This document shows, piece after piece, positions 1,169-59,719 of a stretch of 64,000 nt of DNA. The notes below the pieces were generated by a model that saw only the letters and a list, made by a program, of their open reading frames with translations, was not told the origin of the DNA and did no database searches. This stretch comes from Bacteroidales bacterium. Lineage in GTDB: Bacteria > Bacteroidota > Bacteroidia > Bacteroidales > UBA6680. A program made the translations under genes and the position numbers. How positions within the stretch are numbered: position 1 is the stretch's first letter; the number at the start of each line of letters is the position of its first letter. The DNA is taken from NCBI GenBank assembly GCA_025210735.1, contig JAOARD010000011.1, forward strand, positions 1-64,000, read 5' to 3'.

Positions 1169-1264
1169 ATGAAACGAATCATTAATAATAACTTCTCTTA
1201 TAAAAACAAACACAATTATTTTTGGTACGTTGCATGTGACCAGTAGAAACTAAAAAACAAGCAC
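1169..1264 (+). repeat. Leader element, copy 1 (before mltF-like gene)
   Basis: Copy of the dispersed element of about 90 bp described in the findings. It starts ATGAAACGAATCATTA and ends exactly at the start codon of the downstream gene. The right half GTTGCATGTGACCAG followed by an AAACTAAAAAAC stretch matches GTTCCATCTGACAACTAAAAAAC of the copy at 31229-31319. This is one of the more diverged copies. Confidence 0.6.
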
Positions 1265-3338: not shown

Positions 3339-4726
3339 TACTTTCTAAAATTTTTAATAAAATCATCAATTTCTGAGACCCCTCCTTGATAAACCAAGTA
3401 ACCATCATAAGGTTCACGAGGAGTTATCTCATCGTTTACTGTATCAAGCATTATATCCTTTACCTTTTCAGGGTTATCTGTCTGACCAAGAGCCCATCCT
3501 AATTTTATATAGGCGGTTTCTGGTAACATGTTTCCTGCCGGTACAATTCCCATTTTCATAAGATCGCGCCCGGTATCATATACAAACATATTAACATACC
3601 CCCATATTGTCTGTAACGTCATATACATTACAACGCCTTTCTTTTGTGCACGCTCTATTGCAGGATATATGCTTTTATTAACATGCCCTAATCCAGTACC
3701 AACAAAAACTATTCCTTTATATCCGCAATCAACAAGCGAATCTATTACATCGCCTTGCATTCCGGGGTAGTAATAAACCATTGTCACCTTCTCGTTGAAT
3801 ACAGGATTACATATCACATTATTGTCTTTGCGTCTTACATTCCTGTCAGATTTAATCTTCTTTATACCTATATCTTTATTTATTGTGGCAAGAGGAGTAT
3901 CGCCAATAGTTCTGAATGTAGACCTGTACGATGAGTGCATTTTACGCACCCTTGTTCCCGGATGAAGGAAACCATATTCATCAGATGTAGGACCAAACAT
4001 ACAAACCATTACCTCTGCAATATCGCTATATGCAGCAGTGTATGCTGCATGAATAAGATTTAAAGCAGCATCAGATGATGGTCTGTCTGATGAGCGCTGA
4101 GATCCTACAAGAACAATTGGAATAGGTGGATTCTGAATCATAAATGTAAGTGCAGCAGCTGTATGGTGTAGTGTATCTGTTCCATGGCCAATTATAATTC
4201 CATCAACACCTTTCTCAATCTCCTCCTTAATAGCTTTTGCAAGTATAACATATTGCTCTGGTCCCATATTTTCACTAAACACAGAGAATAGTTTTTCGGT
4301 CTCTATATTACATATATCTGCAAGTTCAGGTACAGCACCATATAACTCTCCAGGTGAAAAAGCAGGGATAACAGCTCCGGTTCTGTAATCTAGTCTTGAT
4401 GCTATTGTTCCTCCGGTTCCAAACAGTTTTACATTTGGTTTGTCATCTGAGTATGGGAACTTTTTTTCCGGAATTTTATAGTTTGCTTTATAATATCCGA
4501 GTTCTGTAATATCTGTTATTGTGTTAATATTTATACCAATATTGTACCCTGTATCTATCTTTAGAACAAGATGCTGATCGTTATCATTTTCTGATCGGGG
4601 CAAAAGTGTTCCTATAAACTCTCCTCTGGTAGTGGTTATTTTAACTTTTCCCCAAACGCGACAATTGTATTTTTCAAATATCTTTAATGATTCTCCTTTA
4701 TATCCTTGTGTATTTTCTCCGTTCAT
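3338..4726 (-). CDS. gatD: Glu-tRNA(Gln) amidotransferase subunit D
   Basis: This is the asparaginase-like subunit that releases ammonia from glutamine or asparagine for transamidation of Glu-tRNA(Gln). A small N-terminal beta domain (about residues 1-85) precedes an L-asparaginase I fold. The active-site motifs are GTGGTIASR (Thr104/Thr107), GHGTDT (Thr183, Asp184) and VRKMH (Lys262). I chose the ATG at 4726, giving 462 residues, because it overlaps the gatE stop codon as ATGA and removes a non-homologous extension of 34 residues. The N-terminal AMPS-type domain and the direct partnership with gatE separate it from ordinary asparaginase. The gene pair is unusual for Bacteroidota; see findings. 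Confidence 0.93.
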   Translation of the reverse strand: MNGENTQGYKGESLKIFEKYNCRVWGKVKITTTRGEFIGTLLPRSENDNDQHLVLKIDTGYNIGININTITDITELGYYKANYKIPEKKFPYSDDKPNVKLFGTGGTIASRLDYRTGAVIPAFSPGELYGAVPELADICNIETEKLFSVFSENMGPEQYVILAKAIKEEIEKGVDGIIIGHGTDTLHHTAAALTFMIQNPPIPIVLVGSQRSSDRPSSDAALNLIHAAYTAAYSDIAEVMVCMFGPTSDEYGFLHPGTRVRKMHSSYRSTFRTIGDTPLATINKDIGIKKIKSDRNVRRKDNNVICNPVFNEKVTMVYYYPGMQGDVIDSLVDCGYKGIVFVGTGLGHVNKSIYPAIERAQKKGVVMYMTLQTIWGYVNMFVYDTGRDLMKMGIVPAGNMLPETAYIKLGWALGQTDNPEKVKDIMLDTVNDEITPREPYDGYLVYQGGVSEIDDFIKNFRK

Positions 4727-6696
4727 GATAATGTGGTTTCTGATGTTAATAATGTTGATAACTTGGCAATTGATATATTTCCGACAGCTTCGGGTGCAAT
4801 ATTGCCAATAGCCCAGTTTACAGTACATTTATGATCTCTGTATTCCGGAATTGTTGTCATTAGTTTGTTTGTTTTTGTCAGAAACTCACTGAAATCAATA
4901 TTTCTTTTATTAAAATTAATTCTGTCTAATACCTTTTCGGCCGAATCTAATCCAGATTTTGCAATCTCAGAAAATATTCTCTTTATAAGTTCATTATCAA
5001 GATTGTTGTCTGCAATATATTTGAATATATTGTATATGTTCTCAAAATTAAAGTCCTTCTTATATCCGTTTCTACCATGAATATGTTTTACTCTGTGACC
5101 TATTACTGATGTAACAAATTTTGGTGTATAACCCAGAGATATAACCTTGTTTATTAATTTAAACAGATTGTTTCTAAGAATATATGTGTAGGTATCTTTT
5201 GGCGCACTCCACTCTCTTAGTTTACTCATCTGATAATCTATATCATTCTCTTCCTGTTGTTTCAAACTATCAATATATTCAATAGCAAGCGGTATAGGTA
5301 CAGAGTCGGTATCTGGATACATTCTGTCTGCTCCCGGCAGAACTCTTTCAAACAGAGTAGTTCCATCAGGCATTGGTCTTCTTGTTTCTGAAGGTATACC
5401 TTCAAATGCCATAATGCATCGCTCCTCAACTGTCTCTATAGCTGTCTGTATATCGTTTTTTGGACCCCAGATTATTATCTGAGCATCGTTATCGTTTGAT
5501 GGTAAAGCCTCTTTAACCTGTTTAAATACCGATGGAGATAAATCTGTATTAATATCCTCTGATGATACTATATTTGGTTTCTCAATACAGGCAATAACCT
5601 TTAATCTGTCTGATATTTCGCTACAGAAATCTCTTCCTGGTTGCGTAAAATGCGATAATATATCTTTGAACTCAGGAAGATTTATAGCAATGATCTCTTC
5701 GCATGGAAGACCATTCTGTTTTGCAATCTCTCTTATCTTAGGAAATTCTTTAGCATTTAGAGTAGTATAACTTAATTTCCACGAGTCTTTAGATGATCTT
5801 TCATTCAATATATCTTTTATACTTAAAAGCGCCCATTGTCTGAATGCTTCGTTGTGCGAAAGTTTTGGTATCCACCTGTTTCTCGAAACTCCTTTTATTT
5901 CGACCCTTGTTCCTCCTTCGCAGCTGACATTAACATCCTCTCTGCCAGCACCCATTCCTACTCTGACTTTTCCAGATACTCTGTTTAACAGTCTGATATG
6001 TTCTGCTGCATCTTTTAGTTCCTGAGGAGTGAATAGCTCTGGGGCAGTTACAGTTTCAATAAGGGGTACACCAAGTCTGTCCGTCTTATAAACCCGGTTA
6101 TGACCAAAATCCATTGTCTCACGGCATGAGTCCTCCTCAATACTAAGTTGTATAAGGTTTACTTTTTTGTAACCAAGATCAATTTGTCCGTTTACACCAA
6201 GAATTGCTGTGCGCTGAAAACCAGCCGGGATACTTCCGTCAAGATACTGCTTTCTGGTTATATGCACCTCGCCAACAATGTTTAACTTACACAGATGGCA
6301 AATTTCAAGGGCATACTCAAGGGCCTCTTTATTTATCGGGAACGGAGGAGTATCATCAATATCGTATGTACACGCAGTTGATTTGTGTATTTTATAGGTA
6401 ATCTCTTTTTTGGTCTTAAACTCCATTAGTGCTGTGCCGTCATAAACACCCATCTCACTTAGCGTAGGGCGCATATGTCTTATTATTTCGGCATGATAAT
6501 CTTCATTGCTGTGTAATACTCCGGCAGGACATCTGCAAAAAAGCTTCTCTTTAGAATTTAATTGCTGATGTACCTCTAGTCCCGACTTAAAGCCAATACG
6601 GCGATAATCTTCGGGGGTTGCTTCATGAAAAGATACATATCCTATCTTCTCTTTGCTTTGTAGGTAATTCTGGTTTTTTATTAGGTCTTTATTCAT
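4723..6696 (-). CDS. gatE: Glu-tRNA(Gln) amidotransferase subunit E
   Basis: This is the tRNA-binding and kinase/transamidase subunit that phosphorylates Glu on misacylated Glu-tRNA(Gln) and converts it to Gln. The GatB/GatE cradle begins with GLEVHQQLNSKEKLFCRCP near residue 40. Further family motifs are IEEDSCRE, RLGVPLIETVT and GREDVNVS. A GAD/AspRS-like insert (about residues 330-440) is present, which separates GatE from GatB. The last 130 residues are helical, as in the YqeY-like tail. At 657 residues it has the length of archaeal GatE. It is first in gatE-gatD-nudix, with a 4-base overlap into gatD. A leader element copy ends at its ATG. Confidence 0.94.
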   Translation of the reverse strand: MNKDLIKNQNYLQSKEKIGYVSFHEATPEDYRRIGFKSGLEVHQQLNSKEKLFCRCPAGVLHSNEDYHAEIIRHMRPTLSEMGVYDGTALMEFKTKKEITYKIHKSTACTYDIDDTPPFPINKEALEYALEICHLCKLNIVGEVHITRKQYLDGSIPAGFQRTAILGVNGQIDLGYKKVNLIQLSIEEDSCRETMDFGHNRVYKTDRLGVPLIETVTAPELFTPQELKDAAEHIRLLNRVSGKVRVGMGAGREDVNVSCEGGTRVEIKGVSRNRWIPKLSHNEAFRQWALLSIKDILNERSSKDSWKLSYTTLNAKEFPKIREIAKQNGLPCEEIIAINLPEFKDILSHFTQPGRDFCSEISDRLKVIACIEKPNIVSSEDINTDLSPSVFKQVKEALPSNDNDAQIIIWGPKNDIQTAIETVEERCIMAFEGIPSETRRPMPDGTTLFERVLPGADRMYPDTDSVPIPLAIEYIDSLKQQEENDIDYQMSKLREWSAPKDTYTYILRNNLFKLINKVISLGYTPKFVTSVIGHRVKHIHGRNGYKKDFNFENIYNIFKYIADNNLDNELIKRIFSEIAKSGLDSAEKVLDRINFNKRNIDFSEFLTKTNKLMTTIPEYRDHKCTVNWAIGNIAPEAVGNISIAKLSTLLTSETTLS

Positions 6697-6784
6697 ACGA
6701 TTATTATTTATTTGAATTTCGTATGGAACCAGTCTATATCAGTATCAACAGGGTTTTGTTCAGAACTGGTATAGAGGGTTTCAT
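6697..6784 (-). repeat. Leader element, copy 2 (before gatE)
   Basis: On the minus strand the element begins ATGAAACCCTCTATACC and ends at the gatE start codon, 88 bases later. Its right half (TGGTTCCATACGAAATTC followed by an AT-rich tail) matches the common GTTCCATCTGACAA core. In one frame the segment is open for about 37 codons up to a stop at 6708 but has no ATG. I treat this as chance or degenerate coding. Confidence 0.55.
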
Positions 6785-11658: not shown

Positions 11659-11838
11659 ATGAGACGAAGCATGTGAAAGATTTTCACACACACATTAGAA
11701 ACGAGCATAAGAAAGACTTTAATAGTATACAAAGACAATTTTAATGCGAGTTATATCTGGCAATAAAAAAATAATTATAACAGATAAAAGTTTATTATGC
11801 TAAGTTACATCTGACAAATAAAAAGAAAAAATAAACAG
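11659..11838 (+). repeat. Leader element, copy 3, with doubled right half (before ispH)
   Basis: It starts ATGAGACGAAGCATGTGAAA and is the longest copy (180 bases). The right-hand module appears twice: 11743-11766 (TAATGCGAGTTATATCTGG) and 11795-11826 (TTATGCTAAGTTACATCTG). The second repeat runs to the ispH start codon. A perfect small hairpin GTGAAA-gat-TTTCAC sits at the same place as stems in other copies. A -7-like TAATTTTG lies about 30 bases upstream. Confidence 0.7.
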
Positions 11839-12723
11839 ATGAAAGTTCAGATTGATCCAAAATCAGGTTTTTGTTTTGGTGTTGTATATGCAATAGAGAA
11901 GGCGGAGAATGAACTTGAAAAGGATCCATTATTATATTGTTTAGGAGATATTGTTCATAACTCAGTTGAGGTTGACAGGTTGTGTAAGAAAGGGCTTGTT
12001 ACAATAAATCATGAGCAGTTTAAAGAACTGCATGATTGTAAGGTTCTTATCAGAGCGCACGGAGAGCCTCCTGAAACATATAAGATTGCATTAGAGAACA
12101 ATATTGAACTAATTGATGCCTCATGTCCGGTTGTATTAAGGTTGCAGAATAAGATACGGGATGGCTACCAGGGTGTTGTAGAGGATGGCGGACAGCTTAT
12201 TATTTATGGTAAGAAAGGTCATGCCGAAGTAAATGGTTTGGTAGGACAAACCGGAGGTAATTCAATAGTTATTGAGAACGAAGAAGATCTTGATAAGATA
12301 GATTATACAAAACCTGTTACAATATACTCACAGACTACAAAGAGTATGGATGGGTATGCCAAGATACAGGAGATTATTCGCAAAAGAATGGCTGAGGCAG
12401 GAAATACAAATCCGGATAATCTTTCTGCGCATGATACTATATGCAGGCAGGTTTCAGGAAGATATCCTGCTATTGGAAAATTTGCAGAATCGCATGATTT
12501 GGTTCTCTTTGTGAGTGGGAAAAAGAGTTCAAACGGAAAGGTGTTGTTTAATGCCTGTCTAGAGAAGAATAGAGAAACCCATTTTATAACAGATGTTGAG
12601 GATATAAATACAGATTGGTTTAATAATAGTGTTAAATCTGTTGGTATTTGTGGTGCAACATCAACACCATTGTGGCTAATGGAGAAAGTTGCAGAATATG
12701 TGTCTGGCTTAAAAACCGATTAA
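11839..12723 (+). CDS. ispH: 4-hydroxy-3-methylbut-2-enyl diphosphate reductase
   Basis: The last enzyme of the MEP isoprenoid pathway, converting HMBPP to IPP and DMAPP with a 4Fe-4S cluster. The three cluster cysteines are visible in SGFCFGV (Cys12), DASCPVV (about Cys95) and DTICRQV (about Cys198). Substrate-site motifs IRAHGEPP, YGKKGHAEVNG and SQTTKS are present. At 294 residues the length is normal. Its stop codon shares one base with the ATG of priA, so the two are cotranslated. A long leader element precedes it. Confidence 0.95.
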   Translation: MKVQIDPKSGFCFGVVYAIEKAENELEKDPLLYCLGDIVHNSVEVDRLCKKGLVTINHEQFKELHDCKVLIRAHGEPPETYKIALENNIELIDASCPVVLRLQNKIRDGYQGVVEDGGQLIIYGKKGHAEVNGLVGQTGGNSIVIENEEDLDKIDYTKPVTIYSQTTKSMDGYAKIQEIIRKRMAEAGNTNPDNLSAHDTICRQVSGRYPAIGKFAESHDLVLFVSGKKSSNGKVLFNACLEKNRETHFITDVEDINTDWFNNSVKSVGICGATSTPLWLMEKVAEYVSGLKTD

Positions 12724-27565: not shown

Positions 27566-30500
27566 TTATCTTTTTACCTTTAACAGAGTAAAGAAGAATG
27601 TTGTTCCTTTACCTGGTATAGTATTATATCGTATTTTTCCGCCCGATGTCTCAATAATGTTTTTTACAATAGATAACCCTAATCCCATACCTGATGTTTT
27701 GGTGGTAAAGTTTGGTTCAAATATCTTCTCCCCATCTTCTCCCGATATACCTTTTCCATTATCTTTTATAAAGAACTCTACAAAACTGTCGTCTAAGTCG
27801 TAGAAACCAATCTCAATTATACCTTGCCTCTCTTCCGGTATTGCAGAAATAGCGTTCTTAATAATATTAATGAATACCCTTGGCAGGTGCTCTGCATCAG
27901 ATATAACTCTGTTATCGCTATCAAACTGTTTTATAAACTGTACATCTGTGTTTGAGTATAAGTCAACAATATTATTTATAATGTCCTTCGGATCTATATC
28001 GGTAGGATTTTGTTCAGATAATTTCGAGAAATTAGAGAACTCATTTGCAATATATGTTAAAGAGTCTATCTGTTGAATCATGGTCTCAGTAAATCTCTTT
28101 AACTGCTTATCCCAATCCTCAGGTCTGTCTTTCCATGCTCTCTCAAGAAACTGTACCCTAAGTTTCATTGGGGTAAGCGGATTCTTAATCTCATGTGCAA
28201 TCTGCCTTGCCATCTTTTTCCATGCCTCTTCACGCTCCTTCTCGGTTAACTTATTAATACTTTCGTCCAGTTCTCTTACCTTATTGTTGTATGCAGTTAC
28301 AAGAGCAGATATTTCATCGTTCTTATTGTAGGTAAGTTTTAAGTTTTGCTCACCAATGCTAAGTTTAGACAACCCCTCTTGTAACATTCTGAGAGGTTTC
28401 GATATCTGGTTTGATAGTATTATAGCAATTGATATTGCAATAAGTATTAACATCAGAAAGATATTAACACCAGCGTTAATAAGTTCATATAACTGATTTT
28501 GCAGCTCATTTTGTCTGGTGAAATAAGGTATATTAATATAGGCTAATGGTTCGCCTATATTGTTTGTAAATGGAACATATATAGAGTGATAAGTTAATTC
28601 ACCAATATTCTCTTTACAGAAATATTTACGATTACCTGCCGACAAACTATTAAGAGCTAAAGGATTCATCTTCTTACTTAACAACCCCTGCTTAAATATC
28701 TCATTCCTTGATGAGGCCATAATATTCCCTTTTGTATCATACATGTTTATATCTGTATAAAATACATTTGAGAAACGTATAAGCCAGTATGTCAGATATT
28801 CTGAATTATCGGTAATAACAGCATCTTTATGACTTATCTTATGACTAAGCTCTACAGTTATTGATCTTACCTTCTCGTTCAGATTATCGAAATGCGTTTT
28901 TTCATATGTGTTTGCAGAATAGCGTATTGTACCAAAACCTATTAGCAACAGTGACAGAACTAATACGCTAATAATTGATAATTTAAGCTTTCCTTGCAGG
29001 CTTTTTACATAAAAGAATAGTTGTATGCGCTCTGATTTATAATATACTATCAGAAAGAATACATATATACCAATAAACAGGTGTGTAAACAGATAAAGAA
29101 CCTTATCGGCAACAATAAAAGATCTTACAAGAACAATTGTGTTATTAGGTTCAATCTGATATGTACACTGTATCTGTTTATCTTTTAACCTCTGCTTAAA
29201 TTTATTCTTCTTATCAAATGGCTCAGTTTCCCAAATTTCAGGAAAATCAAACTCGCCGGAATATGAAACCAGATGATTATTATAATAGTTTGCATATGAG
29301 AAACCTTTAAGGTTTGCCATATTCTTATTTGTTTTAAGAAGTAGCTCAGGATATCCCAGATACTTATTCTGAAGTTTACTGTCAAGCTCAATATAAACAT
29401 TGGCTGAATCTTTACTGTTAGCAATTGGTAACTTTATGTTTCCTACATAACTTACTCTACCATTATGATTATTATTATAGTAAAAATTAGAGAATGGAAT
29501 CTGAAAACCATACTTATCAATAATTGTATCAAAGAAATCGTTACAGTTTACATATGCCTTTGTCGGGTCAATTATTAGCTCTGTTCCGGAGTAGCAACAT
29601 GTAATCTGTATATCATATTTGTTATAGTATCCCGACAAATAATTTTTTACAATATGATTATATATGTCCTGTCCGTATTTATCTACATCGGTAAGAAACT
29701 CCGGAAGTTTCTCGTCGCTTATAATAGACTCTTCTGTTGATGATATAATTGTTTCCAGTACGGCATCTCTCTCATTAGATAGATTACCTGCAATTAACTT
29801 TGCATCCTCAATCTGTTTATCGTATTGCAGAGCGGTTATAAGGTACAAACCTATTACTGCAAGAATACTCATTAGTACCAAATTGTATCTGAACTCTTTA
29901 CCGTAATGCCTTTTTATATAAATAGTAAGAGATATAATAAAAAAGGCCAGAAGCATTAGTTCAATCAGCTTAATATAGCCAAAGAGATGTATTACCGGAA
30001 ATATTAACAAAATGGTAATAGAAACAATCCAGATAATTATTCTTTTAAGAGATTCAAACTTACCAAGTATATATAATAGTATGCGCGACAACAGAGAAAA
30101 GTTGCCAAGGAACAGTACCATTATAAGAAAGCCAATTAATGTAAATATGTTCATCTGAACAAAATCAAACATTAAAAACTCTTTTGTAGAGTGGAATATA
30201 AGAATCTTGAACATATACTTAAGCAGAGCCGCTGCGCCATACATACCTGCAAATAGTAATAGTATGAATGCGTTTTTTAGCAGACCATTAACCTTATTGA
30301 AACTGTATGTTTTTACTCTGTTATATATGGTGAGTAGTATTACTGTCAGGCAAATTGTTGATAGAAAAAAGTCGCCAAGTGACGGATTATGTGTTGAGCT
30401 TGCAAAAACGAACGACTGAAATAGTTCTGTCTCATATAAAAAATTGGGCCACTTAAATATTATTAATGCAGCTCTGATAATAGTTACAGAAATTATGAAT

Positions 30501-31228
30501 ATTACAAGCTTCAGTGTCTGCTTAATTTTTAGTGTATGGGCAATAATAATCCATAGCCAACTTAAACCAAGTACTAACGATATTGAGAAGATAAAAATAA
30601 TCAGACTTTGCAGATGTATGGGAACTTTTATCTTTGTTGGGAATGATATTGAGAACAGATATCCTCCTCTGCTTGTATATATTGGGTATCCTAAATACTT
30701 ATCAAGAATAATATCGGCCTCGGCCGGAAGTGATATATCGCTATGGTAACTATCCTGTAGCAGATGATTATGATGTTTGTACCCTTTCTTTAATTTGAAG
30801 AAAGCAAAGAATGTGATAGAATCTTTTTTAAGAACATTAGATATATACCAGTTCTTATTATATTTTATAATCTGCTGTATATCATAGTCGTCATAACTTC
30901 TCTTTTCAGTTATTATGTCGTTATCAGTCCAGTATATTGTTTTGTTGTTTTTTCTGGCAATAATTGTTATGCCTTTATCTATAAGACTATTATAGTAATA
31001 TTCACTTAGTTTATCTTCAGACTCATTCTCTTCGTTATATCTATCGGCAAATATCCTTAATTCGCGTTTTATCTCAGCACTCTTATAAAACAATTCCTGT
31101 TCAACATTGTCTCTAATTTCAGACCTGTCTGTATACCTGTCTGCATATTGATTCAGAAACATTATAGCAATAATTGTTATTAATGTTGCAAAGAGCAGTA
31201 TAATCTCCTTTCTAATAAGTGCTTTCAT
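27566..31228 (-). CDS. NtrY-like membrane sensor histidine kinase
   Basis: A 1220-residue kinase. It has an N-terminal helix and extracytoplasmic domain (residues 1-205), then a block of many transmembrane helices (about 205-470). A second extracytoplasmic domain and two more helices follow, near residues 725-780 and 925-950. A HAMP domain precedes the phosphoacceptor QIAHEIKNPLTPMKLR (His about 1012). The ATP-binding domain carries NIIKNAISA, DNGKGISG and GMGLGLSIVKNI. The HisKA style (AHEIKNPLTP) is that of NtrY, which often works with sigma-54 activators. No receiver partner lies beside it. A leader element copy separates it from rlmH. Confidence 0.85.
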   Translation of the reverse strand: MKALIRKEIILLFATLITIIAIMFLNQYADRYTDRSEIRDNVEQELFYKSAEIKRELRIFADRYNEENESEDKLSEYYYNSLIDKGITIIARKNNKTIYWTDNDIITEKRSYDDYDIQQIIKYNKNWYISNVLKKDSITFFAFFKLKKGYKHHNHLLQDSYHSDISLPAEADIILDKYLGYPIYTSRGGYLFSISFPTKIKVPIHLQSLIIFIFSISLVLGLSWLWIIIAHTLKIKQTLKLVIFIISVTIIRAALIIFKWPNFLYETELFQSFVFASSTHNPSLGDFFLSTICLTVILLTIYNRVKTYSFNKVNGLLKNAFILLLFAGMYGAAALLKYMFKILIFHSTKEFLMFDFVQMNIFTLIGFLIMVLFLGNFSLLSRILLYILGKFESLKRIIIWIVSITILLIFPVIHLFGYIKLIELMLLAFFIISLTIYIKRHYGKEFRYNLVLMSILAVIGLYLITALQYDKQIEDAKLIAGNLSNERDAVLETIISSTEESIISDEKLPEFLTDVDKYGQDIYNHIVKNYLSGYYNKYDIQITCCYSGTELIIDPTKAYVNCNDFFDTIIDKYGFQIPFSNFYYNNNHNGRVSYVGNIKLPIANSKDSANVYIELDSKLQNKYLGYPELLLKTNKNMANLKGFSYANYYNNHLVSYSGEFDFPEIWETEPFDKKNKFKQRLKDKQIQCTYQIEPNNTIVLVRSFIVADKVLYLFTHLFIGIYVFFLIVYYKSERIQLFFYVKSLQGKLKLSIISVLVLSLLLIGFGTIRYSANTYEKTHFDNLNEKVRSITVELSHKISHKDAVITDNSEYLTYWLIRFSNVFYTDINMYDTKGNIMASSRNEIFKQGLLSKKMNPLALNSLSAGNRKYFCKENIGELTYHSIYVPFTNNIGEPLAYINIPYFTRQNELQNQLYELINAGVNIFLMLILIAISIAIILSNQISKPLRMLQEGLSKLSIGEQNLKLTYNKNDEISALVTAYNNKVRELDESINKLTEKEREEAWKKMARQIAHEIKNPLTPMKLRVQFLERAWKDRPEDWDKQLKRFTETMIQQIDSLTYIANEFSNFSKLSEQNPTDIDPKDIINNIVDLYSNTDVQFIKQFDSDNRVISDAEHLPRVFINIIKNAISAIPEERQGIIEIGFYDLDDSFVEFFIKDNGKGISGEDGEKIFEPNFTTKTSGMGLGLSIVKNIIETSGGKIRYNTIPGKGTTFFFTLLKVKR

Positions 31229-31319
31229 CTGATTATAATTGTTTTTTAGTTGTCAGATGGAACTCCGTATTATAATCATCCTCGTGTGTGTAAATGATCA
31301 TTCTCATGCTTCGTTTCAT
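31229..31319 (-). repeat. Leader element, copy 4 (before the NtrY-like kinase)
   Basis: The best-preserved copy. On the minus strand it starts ATGAAACGAAGCATGAGAA and carries the palindrome AATGATCATT. It continues with GGAGTTCCATCTGACAAC and ends at the kinase ATG after 91 bases. It lies only 18 bases after the rlmH stop codon, so it is intercistronic here. Confidence 0.75.
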
Positions 31320-39991: not shown

Positions 39992-40726
39992 TTATTGGAT
40001 TACCTTTTTAAGATCATCCGGGGTATCAATACCAATGGTCTCTATGGTTGTTACAGCTGTTTTTATTGTGAAACCATTCTCTATCCATCTGTTCTGCTCA
40101 AGTGATTCAGCCTTCTCAATTGCAGAGGGCTTTAGCTTACAGATATCTTTTAATGTATTAAATCGGTATGCATAAAGACCAATATGTTTATAAAATGTGT
40201 GTTTATCAAACCACTCATCTTTTTCACAACCTCTGATAAACGGAATAGGCCATCTGCTGAAATATATTGCACTCTTATCTGTTCTGGTAATAACCTTAGG
40301 TTTATTCTCGTCAAACAGATCATCAGTAGACTCAATCTTCTTAATAAGAGTAGCTATTTCTGTATCTCTATCGTTAAAACAATCTTTTAATAAACCTAGT
40401 TGTTCCGGTTGTATAAATGGCTCATCGCCTTGTATGTTAACAACAACATCAAATAACTCACCACTATCAAATGCTTTTATTGCAGCTTCGCAACATCTGT
40501 CAGTTCCGCTCTGATGATCAGCTGATGTCATAACAACATTACCACCAAAACGTTTTACTTCGTCAGCAATTCTATTATCGTCAGTGGCAACAAGAACCTT
40601 ATCAAAGGCCTTAACAGCCTGATTATATACCAACTCTATCATTGAGTTGTCTCCTATCTTTACCAGAGGTTTGCCCGGGAATCGTGTTGATGCGTATCTT
40701 GCTGGAATTATTCCAATGAATTTCAT
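39992..40726 (-). CDS. kdsB: 3-deoxy-manno-octulosonate cytidylyltransferase
   Basis: It activates Kdo as CMP-Kdo for lipid A-core assembly. At 244 residues it is complete. Motifs are IIPARYASTRFPGKPL at the N-terminus, VATDDNRIADEVKRFGG, SGTDRCCEA, VVNIQGDEPFI, KHIGLYAYR and EQNRWIENGF. Cytoplasmic. Its start is next to a leader element copy. It is a single gene, convergent with GSCFA. Confidence 0.97.
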   Translation of the reverse strand: MKFIGIIPARYASTRFPGKPLVKIGDNSMIELVYNQAVKAFDKVLVATDDNRIADEVKRFGGNVVMTSADHQSGTDRCCEAAIKAFDSGELFDVVVNIQGDEPFIQPEQLGLLKDCFNDRDTEIATLIKKIESTDDLFDENKPKVITRTDKSAIYFSRWPIPFIRGCEKDEWFDKHTFYKHIGLYAYRFNTLKDICKLKPSAIEKAESLEQNRWIENGFTIKTAVTTIETIGIDTPDDLKKVIQ

Positions 40727-40816
40727 ATATCTAAAATTTGTTTTTTACAGGTTATATGGAGCTTACATTAATGATAACCATTGTATTTGAATGGCCATTC
40801 TCATGTCTTGCTTCAT
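40727..40816 (-). repeat. Leader element, copy 5 (before kdsB)
   Basis: On the minus strand it starts ATGAAGCAAGACATGAGAAT, contains the perfect palindrome GAATGGCCATTC where copy 4 has AATGATCATT, and continues with AAGCTCCATATAACCTG. It ends at the kdsB ATG after 90 bases. The changed palindrome keeps pairing, which suggests a structured RNA. Confidence 0.7.
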
Positions 40817-47458: not shown

Positions 47459-47577
47459 GTGCTTAATATCAATTTATCTTTTCAAAAAAATAAGATTACA
47501 ACAACTATATGTTTGAAGAAAAGTAATGCGGATGCCGAAAAGCGTATAGAGTAGGCAGATTATTCTAATTTAATGTG

Positions 47578-47656
47578 ATGAAACGAAGCATGAGAAAGAG
47601 TTTTACACACTTATATTATGCGATGTTCCATCTGATAAACGAAAAAATATAGACAG
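47578..47656 (+). repeat. Leader element, copy 6 (before a small lipoprotein)
   Basis: It starts ATGAAACGAAGCATGAGAA, then has TTTTACACAC, TATTATGCGATGTTCCATC and TGATAAACG, and ends at the ATG at 47657 after 79 bases. One of the clearest copies; the shortest. Confidence 0.75.
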
Positions 47657-48010
47657 ATGAAGAGTTTTTTTAAAGTATTTTCGCTATTAGTTGTTGTTTT
47701 TGGTATTATGGTTTTTACAAGTTGTAAAAAAGATGATGATGAGAGTAATGATATTAACATGACAAAAGATAATGTTGTTGGTACTTGGACTAATACCTCA
47801 AAAAACATTATTCTAACAATATCATCAAATGGCACTGGTGTATATTCAAGTCCTTATTATAGTAATCCTCCTGAAGCTATTACATGGGCAATAAGCGGAG
47901 AAAAAACATTGCATCTTCAGGGAACAGGTCTTTTTACACAGAACTATCAGTTAAAGTCATCTACAAAGCTAAAAGAGACAAGTCTCAATATTGAACTAAC
48001 AAAGCAGTAG
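47657..48010 (+). CDS. Small lipocalin-like lipoprotein
   Basis: A 117-residue protein with a lipoprotein signal, lipobox FTSC (about Cys23) followed by KKDDDESND. The aspartate-rich stretch after the Cys fits the lipoprotein export signal reported for surface lipoproteins of Bacteroidota. The mature chain has VVGTWTNTSKNIILTISSNG, TITW-like and LHLQGTG strands, as in lipocalin-like or DUF5640-type beta proteins. I do not recognise the exact family; function unknown. It is a single gene; its start is set by the leader element boundary and the signal peptide. Confidence 0.7.
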   Translation: MKSFFKVFSLLVVVFGIMVFTSCKKDDDESNDINMTKDNVVGTWTNTSKNIILTISSNGTGVYSSPYYSNPPEAITWAISGEKTLHLQGTGLFTQNYQLKSSTKLKETSLNIELTKQ

Positions 48011-58394: not shown

Positions 58395-58483
58395 ATGAAA
58401 CGAAGCATGAAAATAGTCATTCAGAATACGAGAATGATTATTATGCGAAGTTCTACCAGGATATTGAAAAGAAAAATAATAAG
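58395..58483 (+). repeat. Leader element, copy 7 (before the FISUMP lipoprotein)
   Basis: It starts ATGAAACGAAGCATGAAAAT only eight bases after the lon terminator T-run. It contains ATTATGCGAAGTTCTACC at the place of the right-half core and ends at the ATG at 58484 after 89 bases. A small open frame beginning at 58395 stops at a TGA that overlaps that ATG. Confidence 0.7.
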
Positions 58484-59719
58484 ATGAAGGTAAGGTTTGG
58501 AGTGATTGTTTTGGGAATGATTGTTATTTCTCAAATATTTGTAGGTTGTAAAAAGGATGATGAGAATAAGATGCCAACTTGTTCAATTAGTTTGTCTGAT
58601 CAGACAGGAAAGATTGAAAAAGGTTTGAGTATTACAATTGAGTTAAGAGCTAATGATTCTGATGGAAAAATAGTTATGCAACAACTATTTATTGATGGTG
58701 TAAAAAAGGAAATACCAGATAATGGTAACTATGTTTGCAATACAGATAACTATCAGACAGGAAATCATAATATTGAGTTTGTGGTATTTGATAATGATGG
58801 AGCTACTTCTTCTAGCAATATAAACTTTGAGATTATAAAGGCTACAACAATTCCTGTAGTATCAACAAAAGATGTTACTGAGATTAAGAAGACATCTGTA
58901 AAGTGTGGAGGAATTGTTAAGAGTGATGGAGGAAAAGAGATTTCTGAGAGAGGAATTTGTTGGGGGTTAAATTCTAATCCTACTGTTGCAGACAACAAAC
59001 TAATTGATAATGGTGGAGAGGATGATTTTGAAACTGTAATAAGTGGGTTGGCAGAAAATACAAAATATTATGTTAGATCTTTTGCAAAAAATGAAAAAGG
59101 TGTTGCATATGGAAATGAAATATCATTTACAACTTTATCTGGCGAAAATATGGTTACTGACTATGAAGGTAATGTTTATAGAACTGTAAAAATAGGTAAT
59201 CAGACATGGATGGCTGAGAATTTACGATCTAAGAAATACTCGGATGGTACTGCAATATCAGAAGTTTATGCCTATGGTGGTAATGAAGATATTGTTGTAA
59301 CATATGGTAGACATTATACATGGAAAGCTGCAATGAGAAATTCTGTTACAGAGAAAACTCAGGGAGCTTGTCCTACAGGTTGGCATGTACCATCTGCTGA
59401 TGAGTGGGATGAAATGATAACATTATTAGGAGGAAATGATGTTGCAGGAGGAAAGCTTAAAGAAACAGGAACAGACTATTGGAATGCACCAAATGTTGGA
59501 GCTGATAATAGTAGCGGGTTTTCAGCAGTAGGAGCAGGTCTTGTAAAATCAGGTTCTGAGGGAAATTTAAAAACATGGGCATACTTCTATTCAAGTACAA
59601 GATTAGAGGATTATAATAATGGATATAGCTACCAGATCCCTGCAAAAAAATCAATTATAGATAAAAGTAATGGATTTGCAACTTGGGATGCTATGTCTAT
59701 CAGATGTGTTAAGGATTAA
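58484..59719 (+). CDS. Secreted lipoprotein with FISUMP domain
   Basis: A 411-residue lipoprotein with lipobox FVGC (Cys near residue 21) followed by KKDDENK, the charged pattern of surface lipoproteins. A PKD/FnIII-like region (about residues 30-120) precedes a fibronectin-type repeat with ERGICWGLNSNPTVADNKL and YYVRSFAKNEKGVAYGNEIS. The C-terminal 190 residues are the FISUMP domain (YRTVKIGNQTWMAENLRSKK, GACPTGWHVPSADEWDE, AMSIRCVKD). The function of FISUMP is unknown. I placed the start at 58484 because the preceding 42 codons cover the lon terminator and a leader element. Confidence 0.82.
   Translation: MKVRFGVIVLGMIVISQIFVGCKKDDENKMPTCSISLSDQTGKIEKGLSITIELRANDSDGKIVMQQLFIDGVKKEIPDNGNYVCNTDNYQTGNHNIEFVVFDNDGATSSSNINFEIIKATTIPVVSTKDVTEIKKTSVKCGGIVKSDGGKEISERGICWGLNSNPTVADNKLIDNGGEDDFETVISGLAENTKYYVRSFAKNEKGVAYGNEISFTTLSGENMVTDYEGNVYRTVKIGNQTWMAENLRSKKYSDGTAISEVYAYGGNEDIVVTYGRHYTWKAAMRNSVTEKTQGACPTGWHVPSADEWDEMITLLGGNDVAGGKLKETGTDYWNAPNVGADNSSGFSAVGAGLVKSGSEGNLKTWAYFYSSTRLEDYNNGYSYQIPAKKSIIDKSNGFATWDAMSIRCVKD

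Follow-up and report, generated by a model that had tools for sequence, protein, structure and literature searches.

How does one sequence of about 90 bp come to stand directly before the start codons of seven unrelated genes? In the present study, this question was followed from the whole stretch of DNA under analysis, 64,000 nucleotides of a Bacteroidales contig (the window), into the rest of the host genome, a syntenic same-genus relative that is about 82-88% identical (G002), and other genomes of the phylum. The sequence had been proposed to be a mobile 5' leader, a translation enhancer or a regulatory RNA. The first of these proposals is supported by empty sites, by copy number, by tandem and nested insertions and by a phylum-wide spread. 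The copies very probably represent non-autonomous mobile elements of Bacteroidota, which are inserted in the sense orientation just 5' of ATGAA, prefer translation starts and would be mobilised in trans with the help of guide-word pairing.

Copies in the window and across the phylum

All seven copies were confirmed at their predicted positions and each stops exactly at a gene ATG; Pfam domains checked for all seven genes agree that these share no pathway. A structural covariance model (R2), trained on 54 copies (52 from other genomes and 2 from the host genome), finds the seven copies with E = 8e-18 to 1.7e-4, recovering the one at 11659-11838 as two pieces, and the next match in the 64 kb has E = 1.2. 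The features are as follows.

1169..1264, + strand: old copy of 96 bp; R2 E = 3.9e-10; CATGTG/CACATG pairing exact
1265-2713, + strand: SLT/solute-binding (mltF-like) gene after this copy, from its Pfam domains
4723-6696, - strand: gatB/gatE-like amidotransferase gene (GatB_N domain) after the 6697-6784 copy
6697..6784, - strand: divergent, strongly conserved copy; R2 E = 1.7e-4; long hairpin, variable loop and start-codon hairpin CATACG/CGTATG
11659..11838, + strand: composite copy, with the outer element at 11659-11699 and 11788-11838; absent from G002
11700..11787, + strand: nested second element, its ends shifted by 4 nt (AACGAGC...CAGATAA)
11839-12723, + strand: ispH (LytB) gene after the composite copy, from its Pfam domain
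27566-31228, - strand: histidine-kinase (ntrY-like) gene after the 31229-31319 copy
31229..31319, - strand: young canonical copy of 91 bp; R2 E = 8e-18; CATCTG/CAGATG exact; clean empty site in G002
39992-40726, - strand: kdsB-like cytidylyltransferase gene after the 40727-40816 copy
40727..40816, - strand: old copy; R2 E = 2.6e-12; pairing kept as CATATA/TATATG, not recognisably kept in G002
47578..47656, + strand: copy shorter by 12 bp (79 bp), shared with G002; R2 E = 5.9e-11; pairing exact
47657-48010, + strand: small gene after this copy, with no Pfam match
58395..58483, + strand: degenerate copy, terminal pairing lost; R2 E = 4.1e-8
58484-59719, + strand: gene with a Fib_succ_major domain after this copy

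Two details of the original prediction had to be changed. The 180-bp copy at 11659-11838 had been described as having a doubled right half, which is wrong, since it is one element nested within another (the insert being 11700-11787). At the right edge, the A-rich tail was found as described, but there is more to this edge: in six of the seven window copies the last three bases together with the ATG of the gene are complementary to the CATNTG word inside the element. The copies are of unequal age. Those at 31229-31319 and 11659-11838 are absent from G002, and those at 1169, 6697, 40727 and 47578 are shared and have diverged to a varying degree, with one pair broken in the G002 copy of 1169 and the pairing broken in the G002 orthologue of 47578. 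The 58395 copy and its gene both lie inside a 1.5-kb stretch that is missing from G002.

In the 5.63-Mb host genome as a whole, 78 occurrences of the exact left-end 19-mer ATGAAACGAAGCATGAGAA were counted, and none of its reversed control; these counts, together with the R2 search, rule out a simple repeat or a chance origin. A sequence model gives at least 159 copies for the host genome, which is a minimum because the scoring covered 150 candidates, and related copies were found in 14 of 59 relatives. In named GTDB genomes, at least 99 stretches were matched by a two-ended pattern, and these genomes span Marinilabiliales, Prolixibacteraceae, Marinifilaceae, Prevotella, Paludibacter, Chitinophaga/Niastella and Flavobacteriales, and the highest copy numbers were seen in Labilibaculum (143) and Plebeiobacterium (138). 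When 395 Bacteroidota genomes were drawn evenly, a match was present in 40 of them, other classes included. The unit is about 70-120 bp long, mostly 87-96 bp. The elements form a family of short mobile elements reaching across the phylum Bacteroidota. The plasmid and phage collections searched gave no match. One IMG/VR viral contig has a copy (L202:8771-8836), in which the element through the gene junction matches the host copy C9:89862; this contig is possibly a prophage, or a host-derived or mis-binned contig.

Insertion before ATGAA and pairing at the right end

Evidence for mobility comes from four sites that are filled in the host and empty in G002, namely the window copies 31229 and 11659, a tandem pair (L034) and a further locus (L023). 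The empty site for 31229-31319 reads ...AACATAAACCA joined to ATGAAAGCACTT; for 11659-11838, ...TATTAAAG joined to ATGAATGTTCAG; for the tandem pair, ...ATTAGAATATAAC joined to ATGAAAATATTG; and for L023, ...AAATTATAACAA joined to ATGAAAGTTGTC. In all four, the upstream flank meets the orthologous start codon (ATGAA) directly and without deletion, and the duplication is limited to the ATGAAA common to element and target. A fifth candidate, L024, is a less exact case, as divergence has altered its upstream flank. In addition, tandem arrays have copies spaced by 91-92 bp, and composites of the 11659 type, with an element nested at an internal ATGA, occur at three sites (11659, L018 and L042). 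The 4-nt shift in the ends of the nested copy 11700-11787 is not explained by a strict single-boundary rule.

Two observations concern exchange and assembly among the copies. At a site shared between the species (L009:14032-14119 and L321), the left and middle parts differ by type and the right half is nearly identical, which suggests gene conversion or replacement among copies. Five G002 contigs (C28, C85, C94, C113 and C186; loci L065-L068 and L077) end in the same half-inverted element pair; the repeat has probably misled the assembly here, and these pairs were left out of the analysis.

The element clearly, but not exactly, prefers ORF starts. In the host, 29 of 41 complete array-end copies adjoin an ORF start, compared with 143 of 330 other non-coding ATGAA sites (Fisher p = 0.0014), and in other genomes the proportions are 68/85 complete copies and 241/643 other sites (Fisher p = 8e-14); both p-values are optimistic, because the ORF caller was simple and crude and the copies are related. 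The search did not find matches scattered without relation to start codons, yet 20-30% of copies have no detectable ORF start. Of 126 copies, a single one falls within a gene on its sense strand, a rarity to be expected under selection. Since six copies run antisense to the genes on both sides, insertion does not strictly require a sense transcript at the site. The base N of the upstream flank need not match the guide base. Left flanks ending in CAN are frequent (35-50%, against 13% at ordinary starts), and a target preference for CAN 5' of ATG was considered and rejected, many of these flanks being remnants of older neighbouring copies. At four places (L015:8261, L031:3181, L043:3343 and L135:477) one recurrent repeat, ATGAAATTATTGACACTGGTTAATTAA..GGTGCACAATACATC...TTGTGCACC, comes directly after the copy, and no ORF starts there; it seems that the element either targets this repeat or moves together with it.

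Across genera, the layout is ATGAAAN, stem, variable loop, stem, NTTCCAT, then NTG[AG]CC or similar, an A-rich segment of 20-25 nt and CAN' directly before ATGAA. Covariation supports two helices, a left hairpin and a helix of CATNTG with CAN' plus the ATG of the gene. N and N' form a Watson-Crick pair in 140 of 150 copies (A-T 45, C-G 61, G-C 34); the pattern by which these copies were collected fixed the words CAT.TG and CA.ATGA, and therefore the free evidence consists of N:N' and of the additional compensations only. The latter include the rarer right-end pairs CATTTG/CAAATG, CATCCG/CGGATG, CATACG/CGTATG and CATATA/TATATG. RNAalifold picked the CATNTG/CAN'ATG helix unprompted, with 32 both-side changes, and the helix was lost in slid controls. 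On the host copies alone it found almost no structure, which became visible once divergent genomes were added.

In the left hairpin, the stem is GCAT/ATGC in 55 copies and GCCA/TGGC in 60, it reaches 11 bp in L116 and L132, and the loop differs by indels of 1-2 nt. Distant genomes have the pairs ATGAAAT/ATTCCAT, ATGAAACATCCAT/ATGGATGTTACAT and ATGAAACACC/GGTGTTCCAT, and the shortest distant version is 69 bp long with a 4-nt loop (ATGAAAT-GGAT-ATTCCAT). The predicted fold of the sense RNA consists of two adjacent hairpins, with the start codon inside the second. The sense RNA folds with a mean z of -2.67 in the GTDB set and -3.04 in the host; the antisense RNA has -1.67, and the values of DNA lie between about -1.4 and 0. 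An attempt to deduce the strand from G-T wobbles in the stems gave no clear answer.

Possible routes of mobility and related systems

Insertion, target and pairing can be read from the sequence itself, and from these we infer a guide role for one internal word and an enzyme acting in trans. The unit ATGAAA...CAN' inserts directly 5' of a target ATGAA, with the flank neither lost nor duplicated beyond ATGAAA. The internal word TTCCATNTG is the presumed guide or recognition strand, both for the junction of CAN' with ATGAA and for the target ATGAA, and a single pairing rule would therefore set the element ends and the insertion sites. The mobilising enzyme would be encoded elsewhere. A search of 2.06 Mb of sequence for an autonomous version, with left and right ends 0.1-8 kb apart, gave only composites and none around a gene, and no coding relative or mobilising enzyme was found in this sequence or in the Y1 and RAYT searches.

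A possible, if not a probable, route is single-stranded-DNA transposition of the IS200/IS605 or REP/RAYT type, in which a putative Y1 (HUH) enzyme would cut in trans. The strand complementary to the gene reads TTCAT^...ATGGAA-hairpin-TTTCAT^ (^ for the predicted cleavage site), so that the guide would lie 5' of the hairpin and the two ends would be cut at identical sites. A guide 5' to the hairpin foot, with cleavage tetranucleotides by the left end and closing the right end, fits IS200/IS605 elements and REPs (PMC8266576, PMC6006769). It also agrees with the lack of terminal inverted repeats, with a target that remains at one side, with tandem insertion into the end of the element itself and with the presence of Y1_Tnp in 28 of 30 element-bearing genomes. 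However, neither Geofilum (21 copies) nor strain ANBcel2 (35 copies) has a match to PF01797, in draft genomes that could hide a Y1 gene; the presence of Y1 among relatives does not track the copy number of the element; none of the Y1 loci examined is flanked by element ends; the RAYT-like genes of the host have their own, different repeats; and the DNA of either strand folds more weakly than the RNA. Two genes for Y1 transposases and two of the RAYT-like type occur in four host loci on contigs C31 and C1 (L079, L080, L081 and L082); the palindromic repeats near them are different ones of their own (e.g. AGCTGCCCTTTCAGGGCG; CTGGTTCGAGCTTGAAGCTCGGACA).

Like the IS200/IS605 elements, the present element keeps a fixed short target on one side, has no target-site duplication and no terminal inverted repeat, and combines a hairpin with a presumed guide that would pair with the cleavage sites (PMC6006769). 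It differs in having one hairpin instead of two subterminal ones and a canonical 6-bp pairing instead of tetranucleotide guides, and in that no autonomous tnpA copy lies between the same ends in the 2.06 Mb searched. REPIN/REP elements, which are thought to be mobilised in trans by RAYT (TnpA-REP) (PMC3116915, PMC8266576), are likewise non-autonomous and extragenic, reach tens to hundreds of copies and carry a hairpin and a guide word. In contrast to them, the consensus alignment has no GTAG/CGTC tetranucleotide at the hairpin foot, there is no doublet of inverted REPs, the site and orientation before ATGAA are strict, and no RAYT gene is flanked by the element, with the copy-rich Geofilum and ANBcel2 giving no Y1_Tnp match.

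A rather unlikely route leads through RNA: a folded sense transcript would pair with ATGAA on the coding strand and be copied or inserted by a trans-acting enzyme, in a SINE-like or guide-RNA-like manner. Folding is more significant for the sense RNA than for the antisense RNA or DNA, and the sense orientation and the enrichment at starts fit such a route. Nearly all copies are full length, however (28 half-copies among 325 matches), unlike the products of target-primed reverse transcription, and the six copies antisense to both neighbours also speak against it. The boldest version of the mechanism seems improbable to us. According to it, a folded transcript or strand with the one guide word TTCCATNTG would set the ends, select ATGAA and later form a hairpin with the host start codon, an enzyme other than a classical DDE or Y1 transposase would move the element, and the insertions would seed translational switches.

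The nearest known analogue by behaviour is the mycobacterial MIRU, which is near 80-100 bp in size. MIRUs (Supply et al. 1997, after the account in PMC12548453) are described as apparently mobile repeats. They 'insert themselves at start codons', oriented like the gene and often as tandem copies, and their internal ORF is coupled to the gene at -4 nt spacing (PMC12548453). The present element resembles them as a short mobile repeat in the sense orientation at gene start codons, as the empty sites and the enrichment at starts indicate, and little effect on the gene would be expected in both. The coupled ORF of the MIRU was not found here, since in 67 of 88 GTDB copies the reading frame ends before the element does; the two hairpins with a strand complementary to the start codon belong to the Bacteroidota element and are no stated feature of MIRUs; and the hosts are mycobacteria in one case and Bacteroidota in the other. 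With insertion at start codons present and the coupled ORF absent, the element, compared by description, is therefore MIRU-like and not a MIRU, and it seems to be a separate family.

HEARO and IscB-associated elements are said to sit 5' of ATGA/GTGA. HEARO RNA (RF02033) matched none of 295 genomes of the order, in a search whose control was likewise silent, and none was found in the window or in five sampled loci. Furthermore, none of the 4227 Rfam families matches the element in the window at the gathering threshold or in the five loci at E<=5. Judged against Rfam and the open-access literature, a structure-conserved Bacteroidota counterpart of start-codon-targeted elements seems undescribed, and an account in a subscription journal is possible.

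Fate of the leader after insertion

After insertion, the host gene retains its own ATG and gains a structured leader, with that ATG in the predicted second hairpin. The alternative that the element is primarily a cis-regulatory RNA, a leader which sequesters the start codon and is selected at each gene with mobility being incidental, we regard as unlikely for the family; a case in its favour is the gatB/E leader at 6697-6784. There, the stems and the start-codon hairpin are identical in the host and G002 and the loop is different, and this maintenance of stems around a varying loop is a signature of selected structure. The RNA of this leader folds with z = -4.83, and 0 of 200 shuffles were as stable. 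New compensations maintain the pairing at 6697 and 40727, and it is intact in both species at L038 and in the shared L018/L090 copy. Against this, the pairing is lost in one species at 47578, 40727 and L010, and by one pair at 1169; the genes served have no common pathway; and copies number in the hundreds per genome, while relatives have clean empty sites. The earlier suggestion of a regulatory RNA may hold in part: the sense RNA folds significantly, with the start codon taking part in the fold, and conservation like that of a functional RNA is seen in one old copy, the gatB/E leader, but several other shared copies decay. Most copies look like tolerated passengers, some of them possibly co-opted, and the gatB/E leader may be one of a few that have become functional leaders.

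The proposal of a translation enhancer replacing the missing Shine-Dalgarno sequence was not borne out, as no SD-like motif is conserved where it could be of use, and the hairpin would hide the AUG instead of exposing it; the CAN before the ATG is fixed because the hairpin sets it. It is very unlikely indeed that the conserved function is a translationally coupled short ORF from the element ATG to the gene ATG, as in MIRUs: this looked promising in the host, where an ORF that begins at the element ATG stops within -12 to +2 nt of the junction in 31 of 47 copies and the 91-bp units encode MKRSMRMVIHTHEDDYNAEFHLTNKKQL followed by a stop codon, but such an ORF or leader peptide had to be rejected across genomes, with 67 of 88 copies stopping within the element, lengths spread evenly modulo 3 (29/34/25) and the 1-2 nt indels in the variable loop.

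Bacteroidota are largely without Shine-Dalgarno sequences. The element gives a leader to hundreds of unrelated genes in this Shine-Dalgarno-poor phylum, and it therefore bears on translation start and on the evolution of leaders. The present results make testable the mobilising enzyme, the choice of target by base pairing and the effect of the start-codon hairpin on expression.

A further observation concerns the small gene at 47657. A DUF805b cis-regulatory motif of Rfam (RF02914, 41 bits) lies at 47525-47557 on the + strand, 20 bp 5' of the 47578 copy; this gene thus has two leader elements in succession, the motif and the element copy, and a very similar string occurs in locus L080.
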